Of a DNA stretch of 64,000 nt, positions 2,940-64,000 are shown piece by piece. The translations under genes and the position numbers were made by a program. Source of the DNA: Rugalucina vietnamica (taxonomy: Eukaryota > Mollusca > Bivalvia > Lucinida > Lucinidae); contig OZ024875.1 in assembly GCA_964017185.1 (NCBI GenBank), positions 28,033,456 through 28,097,455 on the forward strand, read 5' to 3'. How positions within the stretch are numbered: the first letter of the stretch is position 1; each line of letters starts with the position of its first letter. Below the pieces are notes generated by a model that was not told the DNA's origin, made no database searches, and saw only the letters and a list, made by a program, of their open reading frames with translations.

Positions 2940-3429
2940 TTAGTATCTCAAGACAAACTGGGTGATTTTCAATCTTGCCAATACTGTTAGTTATTACCAT
3001 GACGATAGCTTTCTGGGCATTAGTTTATTACCGTGAGTACGCGACGACTAAAATACGTTTGTGTACATTTTGTTAAAATTGTCAAAGAATAAACGAATTA
3101 TCTGTCTATATTTGACATTAAATCCAAAATTTTGTTAATAAAATCTTAATTTGACAATCATTGTGGTAAAATATAATCAGAAATGACAGTCAACCAATAC
3201 CACAAAAAGTATTGAGTCAACTGATTTCAGTAAAATGGTTATTTAATGTTGTAAGTATGCATTGACGTTTAACGCCTCGTCAATATTCATAATGGAAGCA
3301 TGGCCATGAAAAATATCAGAATATGTAAACTAAGCGTAATCATTCTTATTCAGTTTCTTATTAGTCAACAACTTTACAACAATTTCAGCATCATTCAGTG
3401 TGAAATAAAAGTGTGTTTTCATTTTTCAG
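2940..3429 (+). other. Intron sequence upstream of the rolling-stone-like exon
   Basis: AT-rich, without coding signal. It ends in the pyrimidine-rich acceptor cattttcatttttcag at 3429. Confidence 0.6.
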
Positions 3430-11094: not shown

Positions 11095-12640
11095 CAAGGT
11101 TTCGAAACTGTTTTTTAAACCAGAGGACCAATGGTCCTGTAAACGATCACCTGAGATCAGCTGCATATACCAATAAACATGTTTGAATATTATGGTATAT
11201 AACTCCAGTGCAGGGGCAGATAAGCCCTTGGGCCATTTTCTTTTTTCAGAATCTTCAATATTCTGTCCATTTGCCAATTTCCTGTTGGCTTTTTCCTTCA
11301 AATGACATTTTAACAGTTTTCCCAATTCAGATGCACAGGCAACCCATGTTGACCTTGCCATAAACTTGGTCAAGGTCATCACAGGGTCATGATTTATATA
11401 TACATTGGAGTACTTTAGCCATCGATGCCTCACGCCAAGTTTCCTTGAAATCAGTCTATTGGTTTCAGAGAAGATGATTTTTGATGGGTTTTTACCATAT
11501 ATGGGCATGGCGGCCATCTTGGTCATGTGACCTAGATTATTTATATACACATTGATTCCCCTATTCTATAGATGCTTCACTTAAAATTTGGCTTTGTTTG
11601 GCCAAGTGGTTTCAGAGGAGAAGACGTTTGAATATTATGGAAATATACATGTATATTGCCCCGGGGTGGGGGCACATGAGCCCCTGGGGTCCAATTTTTT
11701 TCAGAATCATTAATATCCAGTCCTACTGCCCATTTCCTGCAAGACTTTCACTTTAAATGACATTTTAAAAGTTTTCCCCATTCAAATGCATTGGTGACCT
11801 ATGTTGACCTTCCCGTAAAATAGGTCAAGGTCATCACAGGGTCATGATTTATATACACATTGTAGTGCTTGAGCCATCAACGCTTCGTGCCAAGTTTCGT
11901 TGAAATCGGTCAACCGGTTCTGGAGAAGAAGATTTTTGAACGGTTTTTACCATATATGGGCATGGCGGCCATCTTGGTCATGTGACCTGGATTTTTTATA
12001 TACATATTTGTTACCCCTTCCTATTGATGCTTCACATAAAATTTCGCTTTGATTGGCCAAGCGGTTTCAGAGGAGAAGATGTTTGAATATTATGGAGATA
12101 TACATGTATATTGCCCCGGGGTGGGGGCGGATGAGCCCCTGGTGCCCAATTTTTTTCAGAATCATTAATATTCAGTCCTACTGCTCATTTTCTGCAAGAT
12201 TTTTTCCTTTAAATGACAATTTAACAATTTTTCCCATTCAAATGCATTCGCCACCTATGTTGACCTTGCCGTAAAATAGGTAAAGGTCATCATAGGGTCA
12301 TGATTTATATACACATTGTAGTGCTTGAGCCATTAATGCTTCATGCCAAGTTTGGTTGAAATCGGTCCGGTGGTTCCGGAGAAGAAGATTTTTGAAGGGT
12401 TTTTACCATATATGGGCATGGCGGCCATCTTGGTCATGTGACCTAGATTATTTATATACACATTGGTTCCCCCTTCCCATAGATGCTTCATGTAAAATTT
12501 GGCTTTGATTGGCCAAGTGGTTTCAGAGGAGAAGATCTTTGAAAATGGTGGACGACGGACGGACGGACGACGGACGACCGACGGAGCATGGGTATACTAT
12601 AAGCTCACCTTGTGAGCCTGACGGCTCAGGTGAGCTAAAA
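11095..12640 (-). repeat. 450-bp-monomer element, inverted copy with both ends
   Basis: Roughly three monomers of about 460 bp, more alike than those at 216-1845. The left end has the hairpin aggaccaatggtcct. The right end has a GACGGACGGACGACGGACGA microsatellite and then the hairpin cacctTGTGAGCC...GGCTCAGGTGAGCTAAAA. This is the most complete copy of the family here and shows the order hairpin, monomers, microsatellite, hairpin. Non-coding; Helentron-associated class is inferred. Confidence 0.65.
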
Positions 12641-30400: not shown

Positions 30401-33400
30401 CTATCCGTGTAGCGAAAACAAAGGCGCTGATCAGCTTCGCGGTTACCGCGAAGCTGATCTGCGCCTTTGTTTTCGCCTATGCAGATTGTTGGTTTTCCCA
30501 TGGGGCGGCTCATTTGTTTTGTTTTCTTGTTACTCCCATCAATCAATTTCTGATTATTCTTGGGAGGTGTACATTGTACACTCCGGTGTGTTTGCAGGAT
30601 GAGCCTACATGCATGAGGATAGAACCTGTGTAGGGATCTTTAACCTGCACAGGGGATGACTGTCCCTGCACAGGGGGCCTCCAGTTAATGTCCCGATCCG
30701 AAGGACGGCACGAAGGGAAGCAAGTTCGGACCAACAAATTTTCCTCACCGCCGGCGGGGATCGATCCCGGGACCTCTAGCACAAGAAGCCAGTGCGCTAA
30801 CCACTCGGCTACCTCGCTTCCTATTTGGGTTTAGCAGTAATTTAACTTTATTCAAACAGTGTCTGGTCATGGAATCAAGTCCTAGACAGTCAGTTTTCTT
30901 AAAAACCTGTCACATTAACACTACACTCACCTTGTGATTATATGATTTCCCCAGAAATAATTCTGGACTCATATACGATGGAGTGCCGACAAATGTATCT
31001 GCTTTACTCTGGTTTAGATCCAACACTCTGGAAGAAAATAGATCTAGCTAGGTCATGAGAAAACATGCATTTTGCCAATGGGAATCGGCTGTATGGAAAT
31101 AATTTCAGTGGACCAGCCAAATATTTGTTTTTACAAAATTGTTACTTAGGTAGTTATTAGTACATACCTGAATCTCATTTTATGCTTTATACTGGTTTGG
31201 AAACACAGTTCTGTTCTTGGAGCCAAGCTGGCCAAATTGCAAACTGTTATGTATTTTATTTAATTGTAAACTGTAATGTAATTTATTTTTCATACATGCA
31301 GCATAGATTGTATAAAAAGTATAACAAACACAGAGACGGGCCTTGTTTGTTTGCTTTATTTGTGGTTTAACATTTCAGTGAACAATTTTTCACTTATGTC
31401 GGGACGGAGCCAACACTTCCTGTGTTTAACCTGTACTATGCATTTTGATCATGGACAAAACCTGGTGCTAGTGGGGCTTGAAGCCCCAATTTCTTGGCCC
31501 AGAGTATCATGCATTAACTTGAAAGCAACCAAGCTAAATTACACTTTTTAACAAGGTGGGGTTTTATATGAGCTACCGCATACAAAAATCAACAATCTGT
31601 ACAGTGATCAGCGCCTTTGTTTTCGCTACACAGACAGTATGATTCCTCCTCTACTTTCATACAAATTTTCAAGATTCTAGCAATGTTCTGTTGGTGTATA
31701 TGCTGGTTTATGTCACACCTGGTTGGAATCCCAAATTGTTTTTTTTTTCATGCAGCGGCTCATATACATTAATTCTAGATCCCTCTTACTTGGCAATCCC
31801 CAGGTCCCCGAGTTTAGTTCGAAGATCTGTAGTGAGGAAAATATTTTTTGTCTTCATGTCTCTGTGTAGAATCTTCTGATCATGCAAGTACTGAAAAAGA
31901 AAAAAGAGAAATTAACATGAGAAAAATTCTTGCATTCAATAATATGAACAAAGCTTTTTGTATTATAAATGCAAACTACCCAGAAAGTCCATGAGGGCAT
32001 ATGGCAGTATACAGAGATAGATAGAACTAAAAGACGATGGACCACTACTGAGTATTACCTTGCTTTCAGTTGGTTAAACTATTTGTCAAAATCCCGATAG
32101 TACAATTCTTCTTCATAAATCTGAAATTTCATGCTTCTTGCCAACTACTATAGAGGCACAGACCGTTTTGTGTCAGACCCGTCCGGAAATCCCAAAGACC
32201 GGTTTTCTCAATCATATTGCATTTCATATATATATAGTATAAATTATTTCTTTTAATAAACATGATAAAAGAGAATAATTGGTAGTTTTCTTGACTTAAG
32301 AAAATCTTGTTCACACAGAATTAAACATGTCTTTATAATCTCAGTCGGAAATATAAAGGCCCTAATTTAATGATCTACTTTAGACGTAAAATAAATTTGT
32401 ATAAGGCCTGGAGAAATACAGAAAGCAGATTTTCAAAATATCTAAAACTGACTTAATTTTACTACCTTCAAAGCACCTCCAATCTCAAAAATCCACTCTG
32501 ACACCAGAGACTCTGGCAAAGTATACTCCAGCCGTGCACACAGCTGCCAGTATTCCTCCAAATCTCCTCCCCCACAATACTCTGTGATGATGTAGAGACA
32601 GTCATCGTTCACGCAGGAGTCGATGTACTTCAGGATACTCTCGTGTTTGAGACGTGAGAGCAGGCTGGCCTCTCGTAGAGCCTGTTCTCGTCCTTCTTCA
32701 TCACACCGACAAAGATCTATCTCCTTAACAGCAAACTGAAATATAAGCCTCCATATGATAAAACCAACAATATGGGTTTCTGACCAGGCCCCACACAAAC
32801 CAGCCTGTACAGTTGCAGAAAATGGCTAGAATCACCAAATGATTGATTGTACATGTACTTATAAGCTGTGCAGTTACTGCATTTTTCTTTATTTACTTTT
32901 GAAACATTGGGATCGCTTTGCCAGTTTCAGGGTTACATGTCAGGGATCATGAGATATCTTAATGAAGTTGCTTGATTCATAATATCAACAAAAATTCCAA
33001 AATAATGTTGAAGAAAGGAAGATCTCAATGCGACAGTATAGCTTGACATTCTATTATGAGTTAATTGAAGTCCCGGGATCACCAGAATGAATTAATAAGA
33101 GCTGTCGCAGGACAGTGTGCTCGACTGCTTCTGACCTTTGTCAAACATAAGGTCAAACCCGACCAGTAACCCAAAGCATTATGCTCATACATCTTTTTGC
33201 CTTGATGCAATAAGGCTAAATCACTGAACTATGAAAGTTAACTATAACTACCTAAGATTTAGAGGTCTCACTCATATTGTGAAAGAAGTGTGTTCATATA
33301 CCAACTGAGTGCCAAGACACGAGGCAAAATCACTGAACCGTGAAATAAGGTCACACTGACCTATAAGGTCTAGTGATACTTACTCATAATGTGAAAGAAA

Positions 33401-36400
33401 TATGATCATATACCCATTCAGTGTTGAGATATAAAGCAAAATCACTGAACCATGAAATTAGGTCATAGTGACCTATAAGTATGTTTGGGTTAAAGGTCTG
33501 GTCATACTCATTCATAATCAGAAAGAAGTATGAAAAAATACCAACTGAGTGTCGAGAAATAAGGCAAAATCACTGAACCATGAAATTAGGTCACAGTGAC
33601 CCAGGAATACTTTACGGTCAAAGGTCTTGTCATACTCATACATATCGTGCAAGAAGTATGTCCATATACCAATTGAGTGCCGAGATATAAAGGAAAATCA
33701 CTGAACTGTGAAATTAGGTCACAGTGACCTAGGACTACTTTAGGGTCAAAGGTCTTGTCATACGCAAACATAGTGTGAAAGAAGTATGTTCATAAACCAC
33801 TTGAGTGCTGAGATAAAAGGCAAAGTCACTGAACCGTGAAATTAGGTCACAGTGACCTATAAGTATATTGGGGTCAAAGGTCTGGTCATACTCACTCATA
33901 ATCTGAAAAAAAGTATGAAACTATACTAATTGAGTGTCAAGATATAAGGCAAAATCACTGAACCGCGAAATTAGGTCACAGTGACCTAGGACTACTTCAG
34001 GGTCAAAGGTCTTGTCATACGCAAACATACTTTGAAAGAAGTTTGTTCATAAACCATTTGAGTACCGAGATAAAAGGCAAAATCACTGAACCGTGAAATT
34101 AGGTCACAGTGACCTATAAGTATATTGGGGTCAAAGGTCTGGTCATCCTGACTCATAATCTGAAAAAAGTATGAAAATATACTAATTGAGTGTCAAGATA
34201 TAAGGTAAAATCACTGAACCGTGAAATTAGGTCACAGTGACCTATAAGTATATTGGGGTCAAAGGCCTGGTCGTACTCACTCATAATGAAAGAAGTAAGA
34301 AAATATACTAATTGAGTGTCAAGATATAAGGCAAAATCACTGAACCATGGAAAGTAGGTCAAACGACCCTTACCGTCATGACACACAAGTCAGTGTCACA
34401 AAGTCAAAAGATGAATGACCAACCATCTTCCTAAGTTGTTTCTATTAAGAAATAAAAAGAAAAAAAAATTCGGGGAGTTCTAGATTTTGACCTCTAGCCC
34501 CGCCCCCCTGACTCCGACCCAGAGGTCCGATGTCATGGAACCTAAAGTGTATGAAGTATGAATGCTTTATGATAAGTTGTTGTCAAGATATGGACTCCTT
34601 GTAAAAGTTGCACAGCAGTACATCTATTTTTACAGTGTTCTATTTTTAACCTCCAGCCCCACCCCCCAGGCATGGACCCAGAGATCCGATGCCATGAAAT
34701 GAAACTCAACCCTACAGGGTACCTATGGTCCGAGTATGAAAGCCCTCTGATAAAAAGTTTTCAAGATATAGACTTCTAGAATACTATATCACAGAAAAGC
34801 CATTATTATTAATGGTGTTCTAGATTTTAACCTCTAGCCCCACCCCCTGGCATGGACCCAGGGATCTGATGCCATGGAATGAAAGCCGACCCTACAGGGT
34901 GTCAATGGCCCAAGTATCAATGCTTTCTGATGAGTGGTTGTCAAGATATGGACTTCTAGAAAACTTTAACACAAGAATTGCCATTTTTGAAGGTGTTCTA
35001 GATTTTAACCTCCAGCCCCACCCCCTGGCCTGGACCCAGGGGCCCGATGCCATGGAATGAAAGCTAACCCTACAGGGTATCTATGGTCCAAGTATGAATG
35101 CTTTCTGGTGAGTGGTTGTCAAGATATGGACTTCTAGAAAACTTTAACGCAAGTGTGACGCGCACGGGAACGGGAACGCACACGGGAACGGGAACGCACA
35201 CGGGAACGGGAACGTGGACGACCGGGGTGACAACAATAGCTCTATGCACTTCGTGCAGTCGAGCTAAAAATCAGTCTAACAACACTTACGTCACTTTTGT
35301 TTTTATTTCTTCCAGAAACTATTTTGATTCAGGTCATCAAAGCTTAGTCTGGCGGGTCAGACGTCAAAATGAATCTTTGATACCTGATCGTTTATCATTC
35401 TGACATAGAACCATTGGGTATAATACTTTCATTCTGACGGCTTACTAGTAAGAGAAGGTGTCCATGCACTACAATGTAACAAAATCATTTTGGATTTTTT
35501 CTAACTTGCTTGTGATGACATTATGATAAACTGAAGTTTTCTTCAATATCTCAATTCAATCTAACAAGTTTACCACAATTATGCTTAATTAGCCCATCAA
35601 TTTGACTATTTTTCTTATTTTTTACAGCCAACTGGTAGCCATTTTGTAATTTTGCATTGGGCCAATCCATACATGGGTTTAAAATCTGGTCTAAACACAA
35701 AGTATAAACCCAAAATTTGATTAAACTGGTTTCAAATATGAGAAAATATGATACTTAAACACTTTAGACAAAACAACTCTTGAGAGATTATTCCCAGCGG
35801 GCACATGACGTCAAAATGACGTCAGATCGACGTCGAATCGACATCGATCTGACGTCATGTGCCTGCTGGGTTTGCTAGGTGCCATTTGGAGTGATACGTG
35901 ATTCACGTATCCAGTGTTACATTAAAAAGATAGGGATCCATCACTACCGTGACTGTAAGGCTAAGGTAGTGATATCATTTCAAACGGCTTACCAGTTAGA
36001 CTAATCAAAGTTTTGTACAGAAATCGCTTGGAGGCTGTCAGCAATTTGGCATATTTCAGAAAATTGGCTATTAAGATCGGATATTTCTGGAATGGCACGA
36101 TAGCTGTGCGTAAACAGCACGGCCTTCATGCTGATTGCCAGTGTCTACCTTTTTGTGGATAACCCTTTTTTTCACACAAAAAGAGGGATCACCTAAAACC
36201 CGTGACGACATAAAACGTGACGGTTTTACAATTTTACATATCCTAAAAGCCGTGATGCAAGGTCGTTCCGTGACGTTTTTGTCACGGGTTTTTCGGGTAT
36301 GACAATTGCAAGACCGCACGTGAGATAGCTTGTTATGTGAATCGGTAATAAATGAACAACAAATAACACGGCTAACAAACCTTTAAATGCGTAACCACCG

Positions 36401-39400
36401 GTTAAGAAAGAAAATCTGATTCACGCCCTTCCGGTTCCGCATATGAAGACCAAGAAAAGGTAAACAAAACAATTACACTACTAGGATCGATTGATGATTA
36501 TATTTTAGTACAGAAATATATCGATTATCTATGAATGCTATTTTGTCACTTATTTACTATTGTAACTCAGCACCAAAGTAGCTCGCAAAATAATTTGACA
36601 GTCTTTGAGTTATTTATTCCCATCTTCGAACCTGGTGTTCCAACAAGGCCAAAGTCGGCGAAATACAACTAAAAATTGGACAATTTGCTGGTAAATGTCA
36701 AATTTTATTGATTGTTCCACGACAAATTTACAGATATGTATTAACTAAGTTGCATCTGATATCTGTGCCAGTATTTCGTTGTGTTAGTGCCCGTCATTAT
36801 CGATTTGAAGGGAAGGAAAAGATGGGTACGCATTTAATCATTAAAATATGAAGGATATATTTCAAGATACGAGGCTTGTCCCAAAAGTCCCGTTACACAT
36901 ACATTTTATTCTGAACGCATAGCAGGAACCAACAACAGTTACTCATGCAAAATATTTGGCCATATTGGAACTTATTTTACTGTTCAAAATGATACTCACT
37001 TCAATGACCTCACTGCTACAGTTACCTTGGTAACCATAAGTAGGCATGACCGGAGCAAGTCAAATTGTGCAAAATGTTTCCTTAATTTCTATTTTTTGCA
37101 ACCTGCTAAATCAACGTAGGTATAATGTGATCATTTAGAAAAATATACCAGCCTAACAACTATTCTATGAGCATCATTTAGTGATAATTTTATGAAATTT
37201 AAGAAAGATTTGATAGTTTGGGAGACAAACAAAGAAGCTTGCCTATAAAACTTCAACGACAAAATTACGACGTCGGCAAAAACATGCGGAGCAAAAATAT
37301 ATGGTCGTTATATTTAAACATCTAAAATATGTTCTTTAAGGGAAACCAAGCAAACGTTTAGCTTGATATTAGTTGGTGACTTCAATACTAGAACAAAACA
37401 CCTACTTTTAAAACGATATATTAGCTAACAGTAATATTACTTGACCTAATGAAACATGGATAGTAGTTAACAGTGGTTAGCATTTGGTTAATAATTATTA
37501 TTTTGCATGGCTGATCTTTATAGCATTATTTTGACGATTTGCTTATAAACATTTTACACAGATTTCCAAATATATGCTACAGTATCGTTTAGCTAAATAT
37601 AAATCTAATTTTGAAATAGATTTTTTTGTTTGTTGTGTATTTATACAAATGGCAAAATATTAAGAAAAAATAAAAATTAAAGGCAACGTCATTACACCTG
37701 CTCCGCTGAAGTAGGGGAACAAGGGTTCAAACCTCCACTGCATTTTAACAAATGCACATAGCAGTACGACAATTTGCCCCCTCAGCCCTTAGATATAGTA
37801 CTTGGTGAACATAAGTGATGTAAGGCTCTGACGTTTTGTTATCAAGGCAAAACAATGAGTGTAATGGAACTTTTGGGACAACCCTCGTACGTTTGAAAAC
37901 CTCAACCTGTTCAAGTTATGGTATTTATTTCCCTGTAAAGCGTTTTGAAAGACATAAAACCAAGAAAAAACAAATTAAAGTATACAGAATGCTGTAAAAT
38001 CGTCTTCATGAACAGGAATATCATGCATGTGAACTATTGTATTACATGTATTTCATAGACAGTTTGTATTATTTTATATCAAACATTTTCACTGCAAATA
38101 TCACAAACACACCAAATTTGAGTAAGCAACTATTAAGAAAGGACGAGAGAATGTGACAATAATCTTCAGCGTAAAACAATTAACAAAAACAAAAACTTTA
38201 ATACATGTGTTCTATAATGACTATATTGCTATCATTCTAATGATTAAATTCGTAACCGAAATGTTGACACAGCTTTTAACCACATATGCATAGAATGCAT
38301 TGGCCAGAGGCAAAGAAACTGTCACCAAACCTCACACAATGTTAAAATCATCTGCGCACTGTATTGCTTTCCGTTAATATGGACGTAATGAGCGGGAATC
38401 TAAAAATATCCTTGCGACTGACCCATATTTTCGTCGTGTACAATGCAATCCCAACATGTGTAGTGGGGTAGGGAATAAAAATCATGATTATAAAGAAAAA
38501 ATTCTGGAAATCCTTTGGGGTCCAAATATAGCAATGTCTAACTAATAAAATAGCATTGAGAGAATTATAATATTTGTCTTCGAATCGAAATATTTTACTC
38601 GGAAACACGAGCTGCAAAAGTCACATTTTGTTTACTTTTTGTTGGCCATCTAAGGACATGAATCGGATTTCTTTTCTTAACCGCGGTTACGCATTTAAAG
38701 GTTTGTTAGCCGTGAATAAGAACTGTGTTGAAACATGTTATGGATATATATTTTGACGATTAAATTATATAAATTATCTATTCTTTCTGTTTTTCTTCCT
38801 CTTTGGGTTCACATATTTCCTGCAATAGTAAGGAATTCCACTCTCTGGTATGTCGTCTATGTCGAGACCCTCGCATTCCGGGTGATACCATATATTGCAC
38901 TTGTCACATATAACATATTTGCCATCTTCTGGCATCTGACAAGTGCAATATATTTTTAGGTAGGCAGAGTACCTCACGCCATCGGGGAAAGTGGAATTCC
39001 TACTTCTTGCAGGAAATAGAGAGAACTCATTCTGTTCAAAGCAGTGTATCAAATGCCCACGCATGAGTTCTGTATCATAATCCTGGGTGGTAGGATCTGT
39101 TCCAAAGGCTTCAGCAACAGCGTTTGCAATAGCGTACAGGCCGCAGTCGCCGCTATTGTTTTGATACGCACAGTCCATAAACTTTAACAGTATCTTATCA
39201 TTGCGTTTAGGAGGACCGTCTCTCAATAGCTGACACACTACTTGTTGTGTCGGAAAACTCATGCTTGTGAAAGCAGAGTCATAAATCTTTATTTCATTAG
39301 AAGATTTAACTTTCATTGTTGATAGTGTGTCCACCTTTTTGAGGGTCTCTATTTACTATCTGAATGAAGTTTCCTCTTGCTTTCTTGAATGTAAGATTGC

Positions 39401-44240: not shown

Positions 44241-44998
44241 CAGAATCAGAATAGTTTACTGGTGAAACGTCAAACTGACGTCAATACCACACCAGGGGGG
44301 GGGGGGGATGAGGGGGGCTTGGCTTGACCGGAGGGGATAAGTCCCGAGCTCTCACAAGAGAAGTAAATTTAGACACACAATCATCTGACAATGCAGCAGA
44401 GGAGATCAGTGAATCAGGGAGTTCATTCCAATCTCTAATAGTCTGGAGGAAAAACTGTGTAAATAGGCATTTGTACTTGCTGAATGTATCTGAAATGCCA
44501 AGGAGTGTTGATTCCTACAACGCCTATTTTTTGGGATAAGGTCATCCGTGGGTATTTTTGCTCTCCCTTTTAGACCTTTGTAAAGCAATATAATTCTATT
44601 ATCGTTCCTTCTTTTCTGCAGTGATTCCCATTTTATTTTTTTAAGGATGTCAGTCATATAGTTCCTAGTTACAAACCTAGCCGCACGCTTTTGTACATTC
44701 TCCAAATCATCTAACAGACCTTCATAATGAGGGTACCAAACTGAGCTACCAAATTCAAGAATAGGTATCACCAGACCTTTATAGGCAGCTTCTCTCACAT
44801 CTTGGGGGCAAGAAAACCAAGGGTCTTATTGGCTTTGGTGCACACATTGCTGATGTGAGTGTTCCATTTTAAATCCTTAGTTATTGTTACACCAAGATAT
44901 TTGATACTTTCAACATTTTCTAACACAGTACCCTCAAGCTTGTAAGAAGCCTGAATTTTACTAGTACGTTTATTCGTCAGCTGCATCATGTTGCACTT
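44241..44998 (-). mobile_element. LINE (CR1/Jockey-like group), 3' piece of outer copy
   Basis: Encodes the C-terminal part after the reverse transcriptase (NVESIKYLGVTITKDLKWNT, RAARFVTRNYMTD) in two frames. It ends in ATTCTGATTCTG, the family's short 3' repeat. It starts at exactly the codon region (KCNMMQLTNK) where the piece at 47171-48400 stops. The two are therefore halves of one element split by the inner LINE. Confidence 0.75.
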
Positions 44999-47170
44999 CT
45001 GAATCTGAATAGTTTACTGGTGACACGCCAAATGACATTATTTCACCAGGGGGTTCGGATGGGGGAGAAATTAGTCCCTTGAACGCACGAGTGAAGCGAA
45101 CTTGGACACACAGTCATCAGACATTTCAGTAGAGGAGACAAGTGAATCAGGGAGGTCATTCCAGTCCCTGATAGTCTGTGGAAAGAAACTACTTTTGTAC
45201 GCTTCTTTGCTAGCTGAAGGTATCTGAAAAGCCAAAGAGTGTTGATTTCTACAACGCCTATTCTTTGGGATAAGGTCATCTGTGGGTATTCTGGCTTTAC
45301 CCTTTAGACCTTTGTATAGCAATATAAGTCTACTATCCTTCCTCCTTTTCTTAAAAGATTCCCATTTCAGTTGACCTAAAATGCCAGTCATGCTACCAGT
45401 TTCAAAAACATAATTTCCCGTCACAAACCTTGCCGCACGATTTTGGACCTTTTCCAGTTCTTCCTGGAGGCCATGAGTGTGAGGGTCCCAAACTGAGCTT
45501 CCATATTCCAAGACCGGCCGCACCAGTCCTTTATATGCTGCTTCTTTCACATCTGGGGGACAAGAATACAAATTTTTCCTCAAGATTCCGAGAGTTTTGT
45601 TAGCCTTTGTACAAACATTGGAAATATGAGTATTCCATTTCAAATCATTTGTGATAGTTACACCCAGGTATTTTATGCTTTCAACGTTTTCCAGTAAAGT
45701 GCCCTCAAGGGTGTAGCTAGCCTGTATCTTACTAGACCGTTTATTTGTCAGCTGCATCATGTTGCATTTGACGGGTTGAAATCTCATTCCCCATTTTCTA
45801 GCCCAACTGCCTAAGCGATCAATGTCTCTTTGAAGTTTCAATGTATCCTCTTCATTCTTGATTTCACGATAGCAAACACAATCATCAGCAAAGAGTCTTA
45901 TTTCAGACTCGATGTCTGCTGAGATGCCATTTATATACAAGGAAAACAGCAAGGGGCCGAGAACGGTGCCCTGAGGGACACCCGACACAACTGGAGCCCA
46001 GTCCGATTTAATACCATTAACCACTACCCTTTGTTGTCTGAAACAAAGGAAACATTTATCCAATTCAGTGTTGTTCCACCTATTCCATAGCTGAACAATT
46101 TGCTTTTAAGGAGTTCATGGGGAGGAGTATCGAAAGCCTTTTCAAAATCGAGTATAAATGTGTCGACCTGGCCTTTTTTGTCTAAGATTTTGGCCCAGTC
46201 ATTTATCACTGTAGTCAACTGAGTTTCACAGCTATGCCATTTCCTAAATGCGTGTTGCCTGTCCGACAGGAGTTCATGTTCATCAAGATGGGCCATAATA
46301 TTAGAGCATACAATATGTTCAAGAAGCTTACAAGGAATGCATGTCAAAGAAACAGGGCGGTAATTGTGGGCAAGTGACCTGTCGCCCTTCTTAAACAGGG
46401 GGCAAATATTAGCAAGAGACCATTCTTTAGGAATTTCACCTGTATCAATTGACTGCTGGAAGAGATGGGCGAATACCGGCCCTAATTCCATAGCCAGTTT
46501 CTTTAGGACTCTGGGATGAAGCTCATCAGGCCCTAAGGCTTTAGACGGGTTTAGACCTTTAAGAAGTTTGGTCACCCCTTCCTTTGTGACCACAATATCA
46601 TGCATGAATGGGGCAGATCTATCCATAAGAGGGACCTGTTTGTATTCACTTTTAGTGAAAACATCCGAGAACTGACCATTAAATTCTTCCGCCTTCTCAA
46701 ATTCGGATTGTGCTATTCCACTTCCATTTCTCTTTTTCAACGGGGGAATAACTTGGGTATCTTTTTTCTGACTGTTTATGTACCTGTAAAAATCTCTAGG
46801 ATTAGCCTGAACATCTCCTACCAAGTTGTTCACGTAAAGATCAGCTTTGATCTCTTTCCGTAAAGATTCAAATTTAGATCTAAATTTTGCATTACCAGTC
46901 TTTTTAGCTTTTGCATGAGTTGCATTTTTTCTGCGAATCTTCCTTCTTATTTCAGGTGTTATCCAAGGGACAGAGGAAACTGGGCGACTAATTTTTGAGG
47001 GGATGTTTATCTGCCGATTCCTGAATAAACGATGTAATGAGATTGAAATTTTCCTGGACCGACCGAGTATCTGAGTAACCGTTGAAGTATATTTCCTTTG
47101 CAAATTTAAGTGTTTCTGCTCTCATGGATTCATAATCACCTTTCTGATAACGATACACTTTTCTCCTAGG
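44999..47170 (-). mobile_element. LINE (CR1/Jockey-like group), inner copy
   Basis: Minus strand, 5'-truncated. It has a linker (WITPEIRRKIRRKNATHAKA), then reverse transcriptase (ALGPDELHPRVLKKLA, PLFKKGDRSLAHNYRPVSLT, FILDFEKAFD, SGVPQGTVLGPLLF, FADDC), then the C-terminal domain to a stop at 45071, and a 3' end ATTCAGATTCAG. The endonuclease is missing. Frame changes near 46050 and 47000 break the ORF. The reverse transcriptase and short 3' repeat suggest the CR1/L2/Jockey group. Confidence 0.8.
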
Positions 47171-48400
47171 TTTGACGGGTTGGAATCTCATACCCCATTT
47201 CCGGGCCCAACTACCTAATCGATCAATATCCTTCTGAAGTTTCACTGTATCCTCCACATTTTTAATTTCACGATAAAAGACACAATCATCAGCAAAGAGT
47301 CTGATTTCCGATTCAATATCCGAGGTGATATCATTTATATGCAACGCAAACAACAAGGGGCCAAGAACGGTGCCCTGTGGGACACCAGATACAACAGTGG
47401 CCCAGTCTGATTTAACGCCATTAACCAGAACTCTTTGTTGTCTATAGCAAAGGAAGGCATCAATCCATTTAATTGTCTTTCCACCAATTCCATAACTGAA
47501 CAATTTGCTTTTAAGGAGTTCATGCGGAGGAGTGTCAAAAGCTTTTTCAAAATCCAAGATAAATGTATCAACCTGACCTTGATTGTCTAAGATCTTTGCC
47601 CAATCATCAATCACTGTAGCTAACTGTGTTTCACAACTATGGGATTTCCTGAATGCATGTTGCCTGTCTGACAAAAGATTATGATGATCCAAATGAGACA
47701 TGATATTAGAACACACTATATGTTCCAAAAGTTTGCAGGGTACGCAGGTCAAGGAAACTGGACGACAGTTGCAAGCAAGAGACCTGTCAGCCTTTTTGAA
47801 CAGGGGACAAATGTTTGCTAAAGACCATTCTTTGGGGATTTCACCCGAGTCTATTGACTGTTGAAAAAGATGTGCAAAAACAGGACCTATATAGCTCAGA
47901 TGCCAATTCCTAAAGGACCCTGGGATGAAGCTCATGTGGGTCTAAAGCTTTCGACGGGTTCAAACCTTTGAAGGTTTTGTTACACCTTCTTTAGATACCA
48001 CTATGTCTTCCATGAACGGGGCTTTTCTATTCAAAAGAGGGACCTGGCTATGTTCAGTTTTGGTGAACACATCCGTAAACTGACCATTGAATTCACCAGC
48101 CTTTTCAAAATCTGATTAAGCAAGATCACTTCCATTTCGCTTTTTCAAAAGGGGGGGGGGGTACCTTGAACATCTTTTTTCTGACTATTTATGTATATAC
48201 CGATAAATATCTCTTGGATTAGCCTTAACATCACCGACTAAGTTATTTGCATACAACTCATGCTGTTTTCTGATATCTGCTTTGATTTCTCTTCTCAAAG
48301 TTTCAAATTTTGTTCTAAATTTTGCACTCCCAGTTTTCTTCGCTTTAGCGTGAGTTGCATTTTTTCTGCGAATCTTTCTTCTTATTTCAGGAGTTACCAT
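47171..48400 (-). mobile_element. LINE (CR1/Jockey-like group), 5' piece of outer copy
   Basis: Starts near 48400 within the linker (TPEIRRKIRRKNATHAKAKK) and continues through the reverse transcriptase to RLGSWARKWGMRFQPVK, where it meets the inner copy. Frame breaks and a G-run near 48150 show decay. Very similar to the inner copy, so both belong to one subfamily. Confidence 0.75.
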
Positions 48401-54855: not shown

Positions 54856-54919
54856 ATGGCACGAGAGTATATTTTAACATTCATCATAGTTTTCATATTC
54901 CTAGTCAGCGTTTCTGCAG
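54856..54919 (+). CDS. L1CAM/neuroglian-like adhesion gene, exon 1 (signal peptide)
   Basis: ATG at 54856 opens MAREYILTFIIVFIFLVSVSA, a classical hydrophobic signal peptide, ending GCAG|GTTAGT in phase 1. A possible 5'-UTR acceptor (ttcatttatttgcag) ends at 54845, so a non-coding first exon probably lies upstream. The product is expected at the cell surface. Confidence 0.8.
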
Positions 54920-55204: not shown

Positions 55205-55310
55205 TAAATCGACCACCAGGCATCTTCATACAACCCCAAAAGAATCTCTACTTCAAGCCAAAAGAAACTGTAGAATTGCCATGTGTTGCCACAGGATTTC
55301 CAAAACCAAC
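55205..55310 (+). CDS. L1CAM/neuroglian-like adhesion gene, exon 2 (Ig1, first half)
   Basis: 106 nt, phase 1 to 2, acceptor tcttttccag, donor CCAAC|GTAATT. It encodes VNRPPGIFIQPQKNLYFKPK then ETVELPCVATGFPKPT; the cysteine is the first of the Ig1 pair and GFPKPT is typical of L1-family Ig1. Confidence 0.85.
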
Positions 55311-55667: not shown

Positions 55668-55887
55668 GTACAAATGGAAGTTTAACGGCAAAGACTTCAA
55701 CCCAAGTGGTCAAGATGACAGAGTTGTACAACTCCCAAACCAGGGAACAATTGTGTTCAACGCTCCCGAAGACAAAGATGAAGGGATCTATCAGTGTTTT
55801 GCCGACAATGGCTATGGTGTGTCGGCGTCCGTAAAGTGCAATTTGAGAGAGGCTAAACTTGCCAGTTTTCCTATTGAAGAAGCTAGG
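55668..55887 (+). CDS. L1CAM/neuroglian-like adhesion gene, exon 3 (Ig1, second half)
   Basis: 220 nt, phase 2 to 0, acceptor atatctcag, donor AGG|GTAAGA. It contains the Ig tryptophan (YKWKFNGKDF) and the second cysteine in DEGIYQCFADNGYG. It ends in the linker REAKLASFPIEEAR. Confidence 0.9.
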
Positions 55888-56978: not shown

Positions 56979-59900
56979 TTAACACACATAATCCTTGAGA
57001 TACGCGGGAGCGGTTTTGTTTCGCGATGATCTGCGTGGCGTATCCGTTTCTCCACTGCTTTTGACGTTGGTATTGTCAGTATCTGCGCTGCTCTGGTTGT
57101 TGGTATTTTGTGTGTTTGCGCTGTCCTGATTGTTGGTATTTTGTGTCCCTGCGCCGACCGATTTGAAGTTTGATGTATCGCGCGTGATTTGTTTATCTTC
57201 CCTTTGCGCAGTCACCATGCTCCCTTTTTTCTCGATAATTTCATATGGCTTGGGGTCAAACGGCGTTGTGAATTTGTTTTGCTTGTCCTGTTGTACTAAC
57301 ACGGTATCTCCCGTACGTAATTTTGACCGTTTAGCGTTTCTCCTTTTGTCCGCATACACTTTCATTTTCAGTTTAGCATTTTTGTCTGCATGTTTAGCCT
57401 TGTCGTGGCTCTCATCGGTTTCAGTGTTAACAGGTGATCTTGGTAATTTAATATTTGTTTCCCGTCCGTAAAACAGAACAGCTGGTGTTTGTTTTGTTGA
57501 TGGGTGCTTTGTAGCACGATAATTTCTCAGGAATGCGTACATGTCCTGTCTCCAGCATGTGTTTTGTGTATGAGAAGCTCGTATTGATTTGCCAAGTGTT
57601 CTCATAAATCGTTCGCACTGAGCGTTGCTTTCAGGATGTCTGGGCGTAATTTTCCTGTGTTTGAAACCAAGATAATCCGCAAACTGTTTGAATTCGGCTG
57701 AGTTCATGGGCGCACCATTATCTGATTTGAGGGTCAGGGGCACACCTACTTCACTGAATATTTTGTCCAATACTGGGATTACTGTCTTTGCGTTTATGGA
57801 GCTCAGAATTTCGACAATTGGAAATCTCGAATATTCTTCCATAAGTACCATAATGTATTTTCCATCTGGCCACGGCCCAGAAAAATCCAAACTTACTTCA
57901 TCCATTACCTTGTCCGGCATTTTGCTCATTTTCAACGGCTCTGGTGTGTGTTTTGGTGTTGAAGCCAAGCAAGGTATGCAGCTTTTACAAGTCTCTTCGA
58001 CAAGTTTGTCCATGTATGGAAAGTACACCTTTTCGCGTAGTAGCTGTTTTGTTCGCACAATGCCTTGATGCCCCTCATGTGCTATTGAAATAACTTTCCT
58101 TTGAAGTGACTTGGGGATGACAAGCTTGCTTTCATGTAACAATACATCTCCATTTTCATGCGTATATACAGTCAGTTCATTTTTGCACCGAGAAAATGTA
58201 TCCAATGTGCCGTTTTCACCGTAACGATTAGTCCAGGTTCCGGATTTCACGTTCTGAATTACCGTTTGCAAGTCATTGTCATTTGCAGTTTCACATGCAA
58301 TTTCCTGTAACGTCATTGCCTTGGGTACGTCGTGTCTCGCGATAAATGCTACGTATTCCTCTGCTATTTTCGATGATTCACAATCCTTAGGATTTGTCAT
58401 GCCAGGATGTCGACTTATATAGTCACTCATGTTTAAATGTCCTGGTTTATATTGAACATCGAAGTCATATGCTTGTAAGCGTAAACGCCAACGTTCTAGT
58501 CTCATGGGAGGTTTCGACTTCGGGTTGCCATAAATGTTTTCCAATGCTTTGGCGTCACTGATCAACGTAAATTTATGGCCAAATAAGTATATATGCCAGT
58601 GTTCAATGGCCCATACTATTGCTAAATTCTCCTTTTCAGTTTGTGAGTACCGTTTTTCAGTTTCTGTTAGTGATTTGCTAGCATAGCAAACAACTTTCCC
58701 ATCTTGCAGCATTATTCCTGCTAAGCCAACTGGGCTTGCATCCACAATTATTTCTGTTTCGCGGTTCGGATCGAAGTATGTCATGACAGTGTCACTGCTT
58801 AGAGCTGTCTTTAACTGATCGAACGCGGTTTGATGCTCTGGATTCCATTGCCACGTAACTTCCTTTTTGAGTAAAGCACGAAGCGGTTCAGTGATGGTTG
58901 AGTAATGCACTATAAATCTAGATACATAGTTTGTCATAGCCAGAAAACTGCGTAATTCCGATACGTTTGTGGGTGGAGGTGCATTCTTGATTACGTCACA
59001 CTTTTTCGGATCTGCGGATAATCCATTTTCTCCGAAAACATAACCAAAGAATTCTAATTTGTGCTTGTTGAACTCACATTTGGCTTTGTTTAGGGTCAGG
59101 TTTCTGTCCTGCAACCGTTTTAATACAGCCTCTAGCCGTTCATCATGTTCATGTTGATTTCTGCCGTATACAATTATGTCGTCACTAATGTTCCGTACAC
59201 CTTCTAATCCTTCAAGGGACGAACTGATAATGTTTTGAAATATTTCCGCTGCACTGTTTATTCCGAAGTTCAAGCGTTTATACCTGCGTAATCCAACATG
59301 TGTTGTGAACGTCGTTACGTTGCGTGATTTTTCGGCTAACAATAGCTGGTGATAACCGTTACGTAAATCCAATTTACTGAATACACGTGCACCGTTTAAG
59401 TCCACAATTACGTCATCTATCGTAGGGATGATGTGACGTGTGCGTTTGATTGCTTGGTTTGGCAGTCTCATGTCAACACAAATCCGTATTTCATTTGTTT
59501 TACTTTTGGGTTTGGGCGCGACAACAATCGGCGATACCCAGTCTGTTGGACCGTCAACACGTTCAATTATGTCTAAATCCTCCAAGCGTTTCAGTTCAGC
59601 TTCCACCTGCTTTCTGAGATGGAACGGAATTCTCCTGTGCGGCTGTGTAACCGGTTGAACATTCTGATCGATGTACAGTTCTATCTGGGTGTCTTTGAGC
59701 TGCCCTATTCCTTTGAATACATTAGAGTATTTCTGACAAAGATAGTCCACTTTGCTATTTTCTACAGCGTGTATTTCTGGAATTACTTGTAAGTCCACAG
59801 AGGTCATGTACGACAGTAAATTCCCACTTTTGCCCTGTGCCACGTAAAAAGGTGCTGTGGTCAGTTTACTTTCAGTTTCAATAGTTGCTTGAAACATGCC

Positions 59901-60959
59901 CAACAATGAAACTTTTGCATCTGTGCCGTATGCGTACGCCTTAGTGTCTGATTTTGACAGTTTTGGTTTTGATTTCATTGACTGATACGTCGATTCATCA
60001 ATTACATTTATGCTACTTCCCGTGTCCACCAAAATACATACTGGATTGTCATTTAATTGTATTTTTATCCTAGGGCGTGATGTTACTTTGTTTACATTTG
60101 ACAAACCGAATAAATAGTCATCGCTACCATTGACACCATTGTCACTGTTCTCTACATTATGTAATGGTCTTGGTTTTCCCTGTCTCTTCTTTGCTCTACA
60201 CACAGATTCATAGTGATTTTTCTTATGACAGAAATTGCAAATTTTCCCTTCGGCGGGACATTTATAATTCATGTGTGGGTATTCCTTTCCACAATTCATA
60301 CACGTTTTATTTTTTCTCCTTTCCGGTCCTTCAAATTGTTGTTGTCGTCGTGGTCTCTGTTGTTGTTGTTGTTGTTGGGGATTTGGGTGTTGTCTCCTTG
60401 GTCTCCTTCTGTTGATGGCATTTGTCTCATTTGATTTATTTTCGATTTGCGACGCTTGAGTTTCTGAAATTTCTAATGCCCTTGCCGCTTTGATTAAATT
60501 TTCTAGTGATAGTTCTTCTCGTAGTGCTTTACGGCGTAATCGTGTTGATGCACAACACTGAATTATTTGTGACTTGATTTCCTTGTTTTTGTCACCAAAG
60601 TCACAGTTCTCAGCAAGATTTTTCAGTCTGGTATAGTATGCGTCCATAGTTTCATTGGGTTCTTGTTTTGTTTGCCTAAATTTGTAGATCTCGAATTCTG
60701 CTGATTTCTTAGGTGCGAAGTAATTATTCAATGCTGTCACCGCTGCATCGTAATCATCTCCAGTGCTGTCCAATGTGTCAAAAATCTCATTGACTTCCTC
60801 GCCCGCATAGTGAAGTAATAATGCACGTTTTCGTTTCTTGTCCTTTATGTCGAGACCGACCAAAAGGTTTTCGAGGCGAGCACTCCATTTCTTCCAGCGT
60901 GTGTCGACTGCTGGGTCTCGAACACTGAAGCTAGGAAACACTGGTAGTCCTTGTGCCAT
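56979..60959 (-). CDS. Gag-Pol polyprotein of the Ty3/gypsy element
   Basis: 1326 residues in one frame. Capsid-like gag comes first, then a basic glutamine-rich stretch and two zinc knuckles near 220-255 (CMNCGK..., CNFCHKKNHYESVC). Next are the aspartic protease with VDTGSS near 312, reverse transcriptase (about 430-760, with SDDIIVYG as the active-site box), RNase H (VDASPVGLAG, to about 870) and integrase (HHCC knuckle, then LDFSGPWP, SDNGAP and NAQCERF as the D,D,E core). It has no envelope. The serine-tRNA primer site and domain order fit the Mag-like branch of Ty3/gypsy; this placement is inferred. Confidence 0.9.
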   Translation of the reverse strand: MAQGLPVFPSFSVRDPAVDTRWKKWSARLENLLVGLDIKDKKRKRALLLHYAGEEVNEIFDTLDSTGDDYDAAVTALNNYFAPKKSAEFEIYKFRQTKQEPNETMDAYYTRLKNLAENCDFGDKNKEIKSQIIQCCASTRLRRKALREELSLENLIKAARALEISETQASQIENKSNETNAINRRRPRRQHPNPQQQQQQQRPRRQQQFEGPERRKNKTCMNCGKEYPHMNYKCPAEGKICNFCHKKNHYESVCRAKKRQGKPRPLHNVENSDNGVNGSDDYLFGLSNVNKVTSRPRIKIQLNDNPVCILVDTGSSINVIDESTYQSMKSKPKLSKSDTKAYAYGTDAKVSLLGMFQATIETESKLTTAPFYVAQGKSGNLLSYMTSVDLQVIPEIHAVENSKVDYLCQKYSNVFKGIGQLKDTQIELYIDQNVQPVTQPHRRIPFHLRKQVEAELKRLEDLDIIERVDGPTDWVSPIVVAPKPKSKTNEIRICVDMRLPNQAIKRTRHIIPTIDDVIVDLNGARVFSKLDLRNGYHQLLLAEKSRNVTTFTTHVGLRRYKRLNFGINSAAEIFQNIISSSLEGLEGVRNISDDIIVYGRNQHEHDERLEAVLKRLQDRNLTLNKAKCEFNKHKLEFFGYVFGENGLSADPKKCDVIKNAPPPTNVSELRSFLAMTNYVSRFIVHYSTITEPLRALLKKEVTWQWNPEHQTAFDQLKTALSSDTVMTYFDPNRETEIIVDASPVGLAGIMLQDGKVVCYASKSLTETEKRYSQTEKENLAIVWAIEHWHIYLFGHKFTLISDAKALENIYGNPKSKPPMRLERWRLRLQAYDFDVQYKPGHLNMSDYISRHPGMTNPKDCESSKIAEEYVAFIARHDVPKAMTLQEIACETANDNDLQTVIQNVKSGTWTNRYGENGTLDTFSRCKNELTVYTHENGDVLLHESKLVIPKSLQRKVISIAHEGHQGIVRTKQLLREKVYFPYMDKLVEETCKSCIPCLASTPKHTPEPLKMSKMPDKVMDEVSLDFSGPWPDGKYIMVLMEEYSRFPIVEILSSINAKTVIPVLDKIFSEVGVPLTLKSDNGAPMNSAEFKQFADYLGFKHRKITPRHPESNAQCERFMRTLGKSIRASHTQNTCWRQDMYAFLRNYRATKHPSTKQTPAVLFYGRETNIKLPRSPVNTETDESHDKAKHADKNAKLKMKVYADKRRNAKRSKLRTGDTVLVQQDKQNKFTTPFDPKPYEIIEKKGSMVTAQREDKQITRDTSNFKSVGAGTQNTNNQDSANTQNTNNQSSADTDNTNVKSSGETDTPRRSSRNKTAPAYLKDYVC

Positions 60960-61405: not shown

Positions 61406-61556
61406 ACCCATAGAGTCTATGCTGGTGACTCGCTTATGTTACCATGTACCCCACCCACTAGCTACCCAGCTGCTGATGTCTACTGGGTCGTGAAAGAGCC
61501 CGATGGGAGATGGACACCACTGAACTTTGGGAAAAGATTCACAATGGATCTTGAAG
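61406..61556 (+). CDS. L1CAM/neuroglian-like adhesion gene, exon 4 (Ig2, first half)
   Basis: 151 nt, phase 0 to 1. Acceptor cactcttttcag is chosen over one at 61376 because only it joins exon 3 in frame and gives the linker length of vertebrate L1. It encodes THRVYAGDSLMLPCTPP with the first Ig2 cysteine, then VYWVVKEPDGRWTPLNFGKR and TMDLEG. Together with exons 1-3 this marks an L1CAM/neuroglian/NrCAM-type receptor used in neurite growth and adhesion. Later Ig, fibronectin and cytoplasmic parts lie beyond the window. Confidence 0.85.
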
Positions 61557-61910
61557 GTATTAAGCAATTTAAGCTAATAAAATAAAGCATAGTGTGACCT
61601 TAAACTTGCCAGAAGCAGTCATACTTTGAATAAGCATTCCACTTAGGCTGTGCTGAAACCTACTCTGACATAGAACTACGATTGGACTGATCACTCAAGT
61701 ACTCTTTGATCTCAACATGATTGAAAAATTGTTGACTGGTATGACTGTGACACCATATCTAGACCTCGTTTTCTTGTCAATGCTCATTTAAGGTTCAGCA
61801 TTCCCAGGAAATGTTATTATGTCTCAAGTTATTGTATTAGCTTCTTGCAAAACATCTTTGTCATCTTATCTGTTAAAGTAGGAACTAAGCAATAGCCTGT
61901 ATTATGGAAG

Positions 61911-62146
61911 GGAGCCGCGTCATGAGAAAACCAACAATGTGGTTTCTGACCAGGTATGACACAAACTCGCCTGTACAGTCACAGAAGCAGGCTAGAAACA
62001 TGAAATTTTAGATTTAGAAAGAAGAGGAATTGTACTGTCCATGTAGCGAAAACAAAGTCACGATCAGCTTCGCAGTTACTGTGAAGCTGATCTGCGCCTT
62101 TGTTTTCGCATGTGCAAAATGTTGCTTTCTCATATGAGATGGCTCA
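61911..62146 (-). repeat. MITE family A, copy in adhesion-gene intron 4
   Basis: Ends GGAGCCGCGTCATGAGAAAA and ATGGCTCA with the central gatcagcttcgcagttact hairpin. It lies 80 bp upstream of the exon 5 acceptor. Confidence 0.8.
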
Positions 62147-62221
62147 AATGTTCATCCATGAAACCAAAATTAAAGCTCTAGATCATGTATTGTCAATGAC
62201 TGAAAAATCACGGTGCACTTT

Positions 62222-64000
62222 TTCAGGTCGTCTGAGGTTTGTGAACATAGAGAAGGGTGATGCCAAGGGTGGTCAAGCGTATGCCTGTCACACTATTAAC
62301 TACTTCATTAACAAGCCTGGCACGCTATTAACTACTTCATTAACTATTTCAGGTCGTCTGAGGTTTGTGAACATAGAGAAGGGTGATGCCAAGGGTCGTC
62401 AAGCGTATGCCTGTCACACTATTAACTACTTCATTAACTATTTCAGGTCGTCTGAGGTTTGTGAACATAGAGAAGGGTGATGGCAAGGGTGGTAAAGCGT
62501 ACCCCTGTCACACTATTAACTACTTCATTAACTATTTCAGGTCGTCTGAGGTTTGTGAACATAGAGAAGGGTGATGCCAAGGGTGGTAAAGCATACGCCT
62601 GTCACACTATTAACTACTTCATTAACTATTTCAGGTCGTCTGAGGTTTGTGAACATAGAGAAGGGTGATGCCAAGGGTGGTAAAGCGTTTGCCTGTCACA
62701 CTATTAACTACTTCATTAACTATTTCAGGTTGTCTGTGGTTTGTGAACATAGAGAAGGGTGATGCCAAGGGTGGTAAAGCGTATGCCTGTCACACTATTA
62801 ACTACTTCATTAACTATTTCATGTCGTCTGAGGTTTGTGAACATAGAGAAGGGTGATGCCAAGGGTGGTAAAGCGTATGCCTGTCACGCTATTAACTACT
62901 TCATTAACTATTTCATGTCGTCTGAGGTTTGTGAACATAGAGAAGGGTGATGCCAAGGGAGGTAAAGCGTACGCCTGTCACACTATTAACTACTTCATTA
63001 ACTATTTCAGGTAGCTGAGGTTTTTGAACATAGAGAAGGGTGATGCCAAGGGAGGTAAAGCGTATGCCTGTCACACTATTAACTACTTCATTAACTATTT
63101 CATGTCGTCTGAGGTTTGTGAACATAGAGAAGGGTGATGCCAAGGGAGGTAAAGCGTACGCCTGTCACACTATTAACTACTTCATTAACTATTTCAGGTA
63201 GCTGAGGTTTTTGAACATAGAGAAGGGTGATGCCAAGGGAGGTAAAGCGTATGCCTGTCACACTATTAACTACTTCATTAACTATTTCAGGTAGCTGAGG
63301 TTTTTGAACATAGAGAAGGGTGGTGCCAAGGGAGGTAAAGCGTATGCCTGTCACACTATTAACTACTTCATTAACTATTTCAGGTTGTCTGAGGTTTGTG
63401 AACATAGAGAAGGGTGATGCCAAGGGTGGTAAAGCGTATGCCTGTCACACTATTAACTACTTCATTAACTATTTCAGGTCGTCTGAGGTTTGTGAACATA
63501 GAGAAGTGTGATGCCAAGGGTGGTAAAGCGTACGCCTGTCACACTATTAACTACTTCATTAACTATTTCAGGTCGTCTGAGGTTTGTGAACATAGAGAAG
63601 TGTGATGCCAAGGGTGGTAAAACGTATGCCTGTCACACTATTAACTACTTCATTTACTATTTCAGGTCGTCTGAGGTTTGTGAACATAGAGAAGGGTGAT
63701 GCAAAGGGTGGTAAAGCGTACGCCTGTCACACTATTAACTACTTCATTAACTATTTCAGGTCGTCTGAGGTTTGTGAACATAGAGAAGGGTGATGCCAAG
63801 GGTGGTAAAGCGTATGCCTGTCACACTATTAACTACTTCATTAACTATTTCAGGTCGTCTGAGGTTTGTGAACATAGAGAAGGGTGATGCCAAGGGTGGT
63901 AAAGCGTATGCCTGTCACACTATTAACTACTTCATTAACTATTTCAGGTCGTCTGAGGTTTGTGAACATAGAGAAGTGTGATGCCAAGGGTGGTAAAGCG
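62222..64000 (+). repeat. 94-bp tandem array of 3' splice site plus partial exon
   Basis: Unit starts (TTTCAG) fall at 62222, 62347, 62441 and then every 93-94 bp to 63942: 18 full units and one cut by the window. The first unit is 125 bp and has ggtggtcaagcg where all later full units but the second have GGTAAAGC or close variants. Each unit has an acceptor-like TTAACTATTTCAG, the first 85 bases of the Ig2 exon and branch-point-like TTAAC motifs. Because 94 is not a multiple of three, the frame shifts by one every unit. Confidence 0.95.
62227..62480 (+). CDS. L1CAM/neuroglian-like adhesion gene, exon 5 region (Ig2, second half; first array units)
   Basis: After acceptor gcactttttcag the phase-1 exon reads GRLRFVNIEKGDAKGGQAYA then CHTINYFINKPG, matching the second half of Ig2 with its second cysteine. 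From about 62325 it runs into a tandem copy of itself and, if read straight through, stops at 62480. The genuine exon end is therefore either lost or lies past the array outside the window. Confidence 0.6.

Follow-up and report, generated by a model that had tools for sequence, protein, structure and literature searches.

A tandem array duplicating an intron–exon boundary in three copies of a neuroglian/L1-like gene of a bivalve

Intron 4 of a neuroglian/L1-like gene in the bivalve Rugalucina vietnamica ends in a long tandem array, each unit of which joins the 3' end of the intron to the first part of exon 5. The most probable explanation (roughly 0.8) is an intronic minisatellite that duplicates the intron–exon boundary and leaves the gene to use the last acceptor through exon definition. 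On comparison with published systems, the array is best read as a member of the 'mirage' class of minisatellites, larger than the amphioxus cases, in a bivalve, and borne by three paralogues. The window, meaning the whole stretch of 64,000 nucleotides that was analysed (C7:28033456-28097455), belongs to an assembly of 1.09 Gb in 47 contigs and contains the start of one array, here called locus A; loci B and C lie elsewhere in the genome (Table 1).

Host gene and organization of the array

Exons 1–6 match in phase and form a single open frame through exon 6, and exon pieces 7–9 follow downstream. The joined gene model codes for 422 amino acids and finds its best PDB match in neurofascin (E 8.2e-56), the next being contactin-2 (E 2.7e-45). 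A search of a large protein collection, which admitted only proteins 0.55–1.75 times the query length, returned 17 relatives that include molluscan proteins named 'neuroglian-like', the best of them 63% identical and from Ruditapes philippinarum. Many are ~420–460 residues long, a range that is shaped by the length limit of the search and is no proof of a short gene. The PDB match and the named relatives relate the N-terminal Ig1–Ig4 region to L1-family proteins, and the L1CAM-like identity proposed in the first-pass annotation stands: judged by sequence similarity, the host gene is neuroglian/L1-like. In 10 of 10 aligned relatives (of the 17, mostly predicted gene models) the exon-4/5 junction is read through with one copy of the segment that is repeated here. 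No further exons, such as might code for FN3 domains or a FIGEY cytoplasmic tail, were found in 20 kb of locus A past exon 9 compared with 13 kb of locus C. The single-copy part of intron 4 aligns to locus C; against locus B, only a dispersed element in it aligns. This short element, probably a MITE-like repeat, occurs in introns of all three loci (e.g. window 61912-62137) and is ~73–92% identical in the longer matches.

Table 1. Positions of the three loci, of the exons and array units of locus A, and of other features of the window. Positions are those of the window unless a contig (C7, C9) is named; unit numbers include the last copy, and a slash marks a splice junction here and in the text.
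Feature	Position	Strand	Remarks
Locus A	this window, C7	+	45 units
Locus B	C7:28281998-28282183	-	exon 4 match; 37 units
Locus C	C9:21401474-21401659	-	exon 4 match; 34 units
Exon 1, coding part	54856..54919	+	signal-peptide-like MAREYILTFIIVFIFLVSVSA; donor GTTAGT; counterpart at all three loci
Exon 2	55205..55310	+	Ig1, first half
Exon 3	55668..55887	+	Ig1, second half
Exon 4	61406..61556	+	Ig2, first half; phase 0 to 1; weak donor AAG/GTATTA
Intron 4, single-copy part to first acceptor	61557..62226	+	AG at 62225-62226, which is the AG of unit 1
Unit 1, exon-like part	62227..62308	+	acceptor CACTTTTTCAG; 126-bp unit
Units 2-19 of 45	62341..64000	+	unit 19 cut by window end; array continues to 66505
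Exon 5	window-equivalent 66424-66552 (C7:28099879-28100007)	+	donor GTAAGT at 66553; outside window
Exon 6	window-equivalent 67146-67248 (C7:28100601-28100703)	+	outside window
Retrotransposon-type polyprotein frame	56979..60959	-	1326 aa, open throughout; within intron 3, outside array; from ORF list, class by eye
Overlapping reverse-transcriptase-like frames	44406-47935	-	partly duplicated pieces; non-LTR type by eye
Frame matching Pfam 'Protein rolling stone' (PF21534)	3300-3884	+	
Frame matching PHD finger (PF00628)	38774-39334	-	
Other tandem repeat	33365-34361		period ~128 bp
Other tandem repeat	210-1638		period ~460 bp
Other tandem repeat	11241-12543		period ~455 bp
Other tandem repeat	4012-4608		period ~33 bp

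Within the window, TRF reports a tandem repeat at 62315-64000 with a period of 94, 18.0 copies and 96% matches. The array begins at window position 62227 and ends beyond the window edge, at window-equivalent 66505 (C7:28099960); its units are mostly 94 bp long, and 19 of them begin within the window. The earlier claim of at least 18 head-to-tail 94-bp copies running past the window was therefore correct. Each unit consists of the 12 nt that end the intron (TAACTATTTCAG) and the first 82 nt of exon 5. Duplication of the acceptor of the second Ig2 exon, as first proposed, is thereby borne out; the split of 85 exon bases plus 9 is corrected by the last unit to 82 plus 12. Unit 1 of locus A measures 126 bp, with 32 extra bases. 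The full exon 5 and its donor are reached from the last unit alone, where the exon continues ...TTCATGAGAAAAG...GGAT/GTAAGT.

Across the three loci there are 116 units, excluding one chance landmark match each at loci B and C. With the last unit of each locus cut at 94 bp, 104 units are 94 bp long, four are 93 bp, one is 98 bp, two are 101 bp and five are 126 bp. The acceptor AG is present in 16 of the 19 units in the window (absent in units 7, 8 and 10) and in 111 of 116 overall, having been lost in 4/45 units at A, 1/37 at B and 0/34 at C. In nearly all units a branch-point-like TTAAC motif precedes the next exon by ~23 nt, and each of its five columns agrees with the consensus in 111–116 of the 116.

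Three gene copies with constrained exons

When the exon 4+5 peptide was compared with the whole genome (123 matches), strong matches to exon 4 were confined to loci A, B and C, and four places elsewhere had E values of 0.06 or worse. DNA matches of the unit number at least 53 (three candidate regions were scored) and all fall within the three arrays; no array outside loci A–C was found in these genome searches, the DNA search giving a lower bound. At every locus the array sits between exon 4 and exon 5, and the last unit runs on into exon 5 and its donor. Exons 8 and 9 are likewise present at all three loci; at locus A the exon-9 match takes in a single TGA on its upstream side, immediately ahead of the point where the frame of the model exon opens. 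A weaker seventh match (51%), at C7:6937573, indicates another related Ig4 in the genome.

Exons 2–6 are open in all three copies, and dN/dS values are 0.037/0.284 for A–B, 0.018/0.120 for A–C and 0.056/0.292 for B–C, giving ratios of 0.13–0.19. This purifying selection indicates that the array-bearing genes appear to work, and it lends indirect support, at the level of sequence, to the view that regular splicing is undisturbed.

The units present a different picture. First, distinct variants among the 116 aligned units are spread evenly over codon positions 1, 2 and 3 (28, 29 and 26). Second, these comprise 63 missense, 19 silent and one stop change, and the resulting ratio of missense-or-stop to silent, 64:19, compares with a neutral expectation of 63:20 (chi-square p 0.85). 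Differences between loci in exons 2–6 are distributed otherwise: 20 in codons with a changed amino acid and 36 silent for A–B (Fisher p 1.3e-6 against the units), and 10 and 16 for A–C (p 5e-4). Third, the 12 intronic columns contain 12 distinct variants (1.0 per site) versus 83 in the 80 coding columns scored, where the coding part has 0.96–1.07 variants per site. The two AG columns are altered in 5 of 232 cells, which lies within the 2–6% mean distance of units to the consensus of the three loci. In-frame stops occur within the unit's own exon part in three units of A, four of B and none of C. The internal units thus show no selection on either peptide or splice signal, and coding use of the units was rejected on the even spread over codon positions and the neutral missense:silent ratio.

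Turnover of units and probable exchange between arrays

Unit differences hardly set the loci apart. On average, two units differ by 3.8% within A, 5.5% within B and 9.1% within C, as against 4.8% for A–B, 7.2% for A–C and 8.0% for B–C. Nearest-neighbour units are mostly from the same locus for A (33.3/45) and C (25.3/34), and those of the 37 units of B lie in A for 19.7 and in B for 16.2. Consensus units of A and B are the same, and that of C differs at 1 of 94 positions. Measured against a null that ignores mutation hot spots, shared unit variants number 20 for A–B (null mean 6.5; reached in 0 of 2000 draws), 20 for B–C (10.2; 0 of 2000) and 13 for A–C (7.9; 62 of 2000). As judged from these sequences, units of A and B seem clearly mixed, those of C less clearly.

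Loci A and B also have in common linked rare variants (units A3 and B29) and a 126-bp unit type. Their exon 2 is identical over 106/106 nt, whereas exons 3–6 differ at 56 of 603 positions (chance 3e-5), which suggests gene conversion between two old paralogues. Introns of A and B are mostly unalignable save for short pieces; those of A and C align in long stretches, at 81–86% over pieces of 0.7–1.2 kb that include exons. Together, the shared A–B unit variants and the identical exon 2 point to exchange, and exchange between A and B would be the simplest reading of the data. The consensus units are nearly identical despite an A–B dS of 0.28, so neutrality of the units needs exchange between loci. 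Arrays left unchanged since the A–B duplication, with no exchange, were considered and rejected, since units lie 2–6% from their consensus versus an exon dS of 0.28. Independent origin of the three arrays is unlikely because all have the same junction, TTCAT/TAACTATTTCAG. Locus C in addition contains a block duplication of 13 units, with mean differences of 5.5 at lag 13 versus 8.6 overall.

Probable choice of the last acceptor

Reading forward from exon 4 was carried out for 109 acceptors (41 at A, 36 at B and 32 at C), which are the 116 units less five without AG and two units of locus C that the search pattern missed. An open frame up to the exon-5 donor follows from only three of the 109, namely the terminal acceptor of each locus, and read-through from all 106 non-terminal acceptors ends in a stop. 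A 42-residue tail after exon 4, followed by a stop, arises from 35/40 non-terminal acceptors at A, 26/35 at B and 21/31 at C. That only the right, presumably last, unit can give a full receptor is thus upheld among the acceptors examined. The companion claim, that reading through any two units leads to a stop, agrees with the 106 non-terminal acceptors and breaks down in its literal form at units 1 and 2 of locus A, which share one frame (the 126 bp of unit 1 make 42 codons) and meet their stop in unit 3.

The 34-nt stretch that precedes the last acceptor recurs identically at 30 of 43 internal junctions in A, 2 of 35 in B and 0 of 32 in C; the last junctions of B and C carry small differences from the internal ones. 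At least in A, therefore, the upstream sequence does not mark the last acceptor. This acceptor stands apart in being followed by the rest of the exon, which is not duplicated, and, 129 nt on, by the GTAAGT donor. Since only the last acceptor has both, the likely selector is exon definition, an established principle.

The preferred explanation, the boundary-duplicating minisatellite with use of the last acceptor, can be set out as a sequence of steps. A tandem duplication of the last 12 nt of intron 4 and the first 82 nt of exon 5 would have founded the minisatellite, and unequal exchange, including exchange between gene copies, may have altered it since. Splicing would remove the array within an intron 4 of ~4.9 kb (4,867 nt with the last acceptor, 670 nt with the first). 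The spliceosome would pick the last acceptor because only that copy has a good donor 129 nt further on. Exons begun at upstream acceptors would be 223 nt to ~4.3 kb long and run into early stops, and mis-spliced RNA would presumably decay. Four observations count against this explanation. First, the local upstream identity in A leads one to expect some use of upstream acceptors. Second, moderate donor-like sites (2.9–4.0 on a rough scale) occur in a minority of units. Third, an array in all three gene copies could mean that it is kept for a reason. Fourth, near-identical consensus units beside an A–B dS of 0.28 require, if the units are neutral, exchange between loci, for which the signs are less clear at locus C.

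An alternative is that the array is a regulatory bank of acceptors. Splicing into an internal unit would bring an early stop, and either the RNA would decay or an Ig1–Ig2 fragment ending in a novel tail would be secreted. Unit number or splicing factors would then govern what share of transcripts reaches the last acceptor, and thereby receptor dose. Such a role would fit the retention of AG in 111/116 units and of a branch-point-like motif in nearly all, the tail of constant length from 35/40 non-terminal A acceptors, and the array kept by every one of the three gene copies found; a donor-side VNTR in human ABCA7 is described as altering splicing with its length (PMC5954066). However, the units vary neutrally, their splice signals included (12 variants in 12 intronic columns versus 83 in 80 coding ones), and unit number differs among the loci, and we regard this alternative as unlikely. 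The earlier proposal that the array selects, silences or varies the gene finds no support: the units are without visible coding constraint, AG changes are at background level, the exons of all three copies are constrained, and the same architecture has been published as 'mirage' with splicing undisturbed. An active choice among acceptors is possible and is not indicated by these data.

Array frames on further contigs

Near-identical units are hard to assemble, and the first-pass annotation had allowed for a collapsed or expanded assembly. An artefact, either through expansion of a few true units or through one locus assembled three times, is nevertheless highly improbable. The loci lie on two contigs (66 and 63 Mb) and differ in flanks, unit numbers and unit types, and two further public contigs are listed with array frames of unit types not found at loci A–C.

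The latter were found with a 65-residue array frame, which matched 24 of 26 candidate proteins of a public collection at E values up to 1. All have ENA as source, and no match came from any other recognisable one; the search requires shared five-residue words and says little on other bivalves. In an end-aligned, ungapped comparison, 16 representatives listed with longest contigs of 4,015,724 or 2,472,275 bases match frames of loci A–C exactly, and these contigs appear to be the same assembly at contig level. All eight cluster representatives listed with longest contigs of 7,678,935 or 2,579,116 bases are without an exact match to those frames, and they would come from another haplotype or a close relative. 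The other unit types listed from these contigs make a one-off error of assembly less likely and favour a variable unit content. Among the frames from the further ENA contigs, P0019 is a 93-residue frame in which two consecutive units share one frame, and P0039 looks like unit 1 of locus C together with the adjoining intron sequence.

Possible use of units as exons

Donor strength was scored with a rough matrix of donor-site frequencies, on which the eight donor variants of these genes reach at most 7.1, with exon 2 (0.1) and exon 4 at loci A and C (0.3) at the lower end. On this scale GTG/GTAAAG, the strongest donor-like site in the consensus unit, scores 1.1, and a minority of units (20 counted) reach 2.9–4.0, values that fall within the range of the real donors. 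The stretch from the acceptor to this internal site would make a 45-nt exon of phase 1-1, so that units might act as cassette micro-exons, each step adding 15 residues to Ig2; in the consensus the 45 nt are in frame and free of stops, and the frame would be kept whatever number was included. Against this, the intron between neighbouring units would be only 49 nt, which is very short; the units are without coding constraint; C stands at the key donor position (exon offset 47) in 31/116 units; and such an insert appears in none of 10 aligned relatives. We accordingly give micro-exons very little credence. Recursive splicing by an AG/GT ratchet was also rejected, since the consensus CAG/GTCGTC scores -3.3 with the same rough matrix, below all eight real donor variants; the exception is AG/GTAGCT in units 9, 11 and 12 of locus A, which scores 2.4 on that matrix.

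Alternative exons of Dscam1 are complete, in frame and diverse. A bank of mutually exclusive half-Ig exons of this type, suggested by the dozens of copies of an Ig2 half-exon in a receptor of the Ig superfamily, has practically no chance of being correct, as each unit stops 47 nt short of the exon end and lacks the donor there, most unit lengths are not divisible by three, and the units show no coding constraint. Both systems hold many copies of part of an Ig-domain exon in a neural Ig receptor, but those of the array are incomplete, mostly out of frame and not diverse.

Relation to known systems

In the cited accounts, the amphioxus 'mirage' minisatellites are tandem repeats over an intron–exon boundary, in Adh3 and in the globin genes BflGb6 and BflGb9 (PMC3087553), and PGBD5 and troponin C are also named (PMC3902484). 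BflGb6 has six and three units of 150–160 bp on two haplotypes (PMC3087553), and the Adh3 units are 10–72 bp long (PMC3087553, PMC3902484). Regular splicing of the globin and Adh3 genes is indicated there by RT-PCR (PMC3087553), and somatic length instability is reported at Adh3 (PMC3087553, PMC3902484).

The bivalve array resembles these systems in several respects. Tandem units (45, 37 and 34) span the intron–exon boundary, and, as described for BflGb6, each holds the 3' end of an intron and the 5' part of an exon. An authentic exon is retained at the end of the array, with exons 2–6 of the gene open at all three loci (the 3' end of the gene was not found). Splice signals persist in many units (AG in 111/116), and turnover and length variation are evident between loci, in the block duplication of C and on the further contigs. 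It differs from the amphioxus cases, as far as the cited texts describe them, in its 34–45 units of mostly 94 bp, its presence in three paralogues of a bivalve and its signs of exchange between loci; the splicing data there come from RT-PCR, and the bivalve array is known from genomic sequence.

Two other published systems are related in part. The VNTR in intron 18 of human ABCA7 likewise places a copy of a splice site in each unit beside the real exon, with retention of one unit seen; unlike the present array it is described as lying on the donor side, with an intronic 25-bp unit whose length alters splicing (PMC5954066). The intron gain reported for a potato RdRp gene involves, as here, duplication of the 3' part of an intron with the 5' part of an exon, which brings a branch site and an acceptor; that case is presented as a single duplication creating a new intron through a recruited GTAAG donor, whereas the present array has dozens of copies without any sign of new introns (PMC4974935). 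Among the matches listed from the open-licence literature, judged by title and the start of the abstract, there was no report of a boundary-spanning array in a mollusc.

Boundary-duplicating minisatellites, described from amphioxus in the papers found, would now include a bivalve case of much greater size, borne by every copy found of a gene whose exons are still under selection. It offers a natural test of exon definition, in which one acceptor has to be chosen among dozens of locally near-identical ones and the correct answer is given by the reading frame. It is conceivable, though doubtful, that the array acts as a length-dependent dimmer, with up to 45 near-equivalent acceptors, each upstream one leading to a dead or secreted short product. 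Unit number, shifted by unequal exchange among alleles and among gene copies, would then set receptor dose and would vary between individuals. Should unit number indeed affect splicing, the dose of a cell-adhesion receptor would vary heritably through these arrays.
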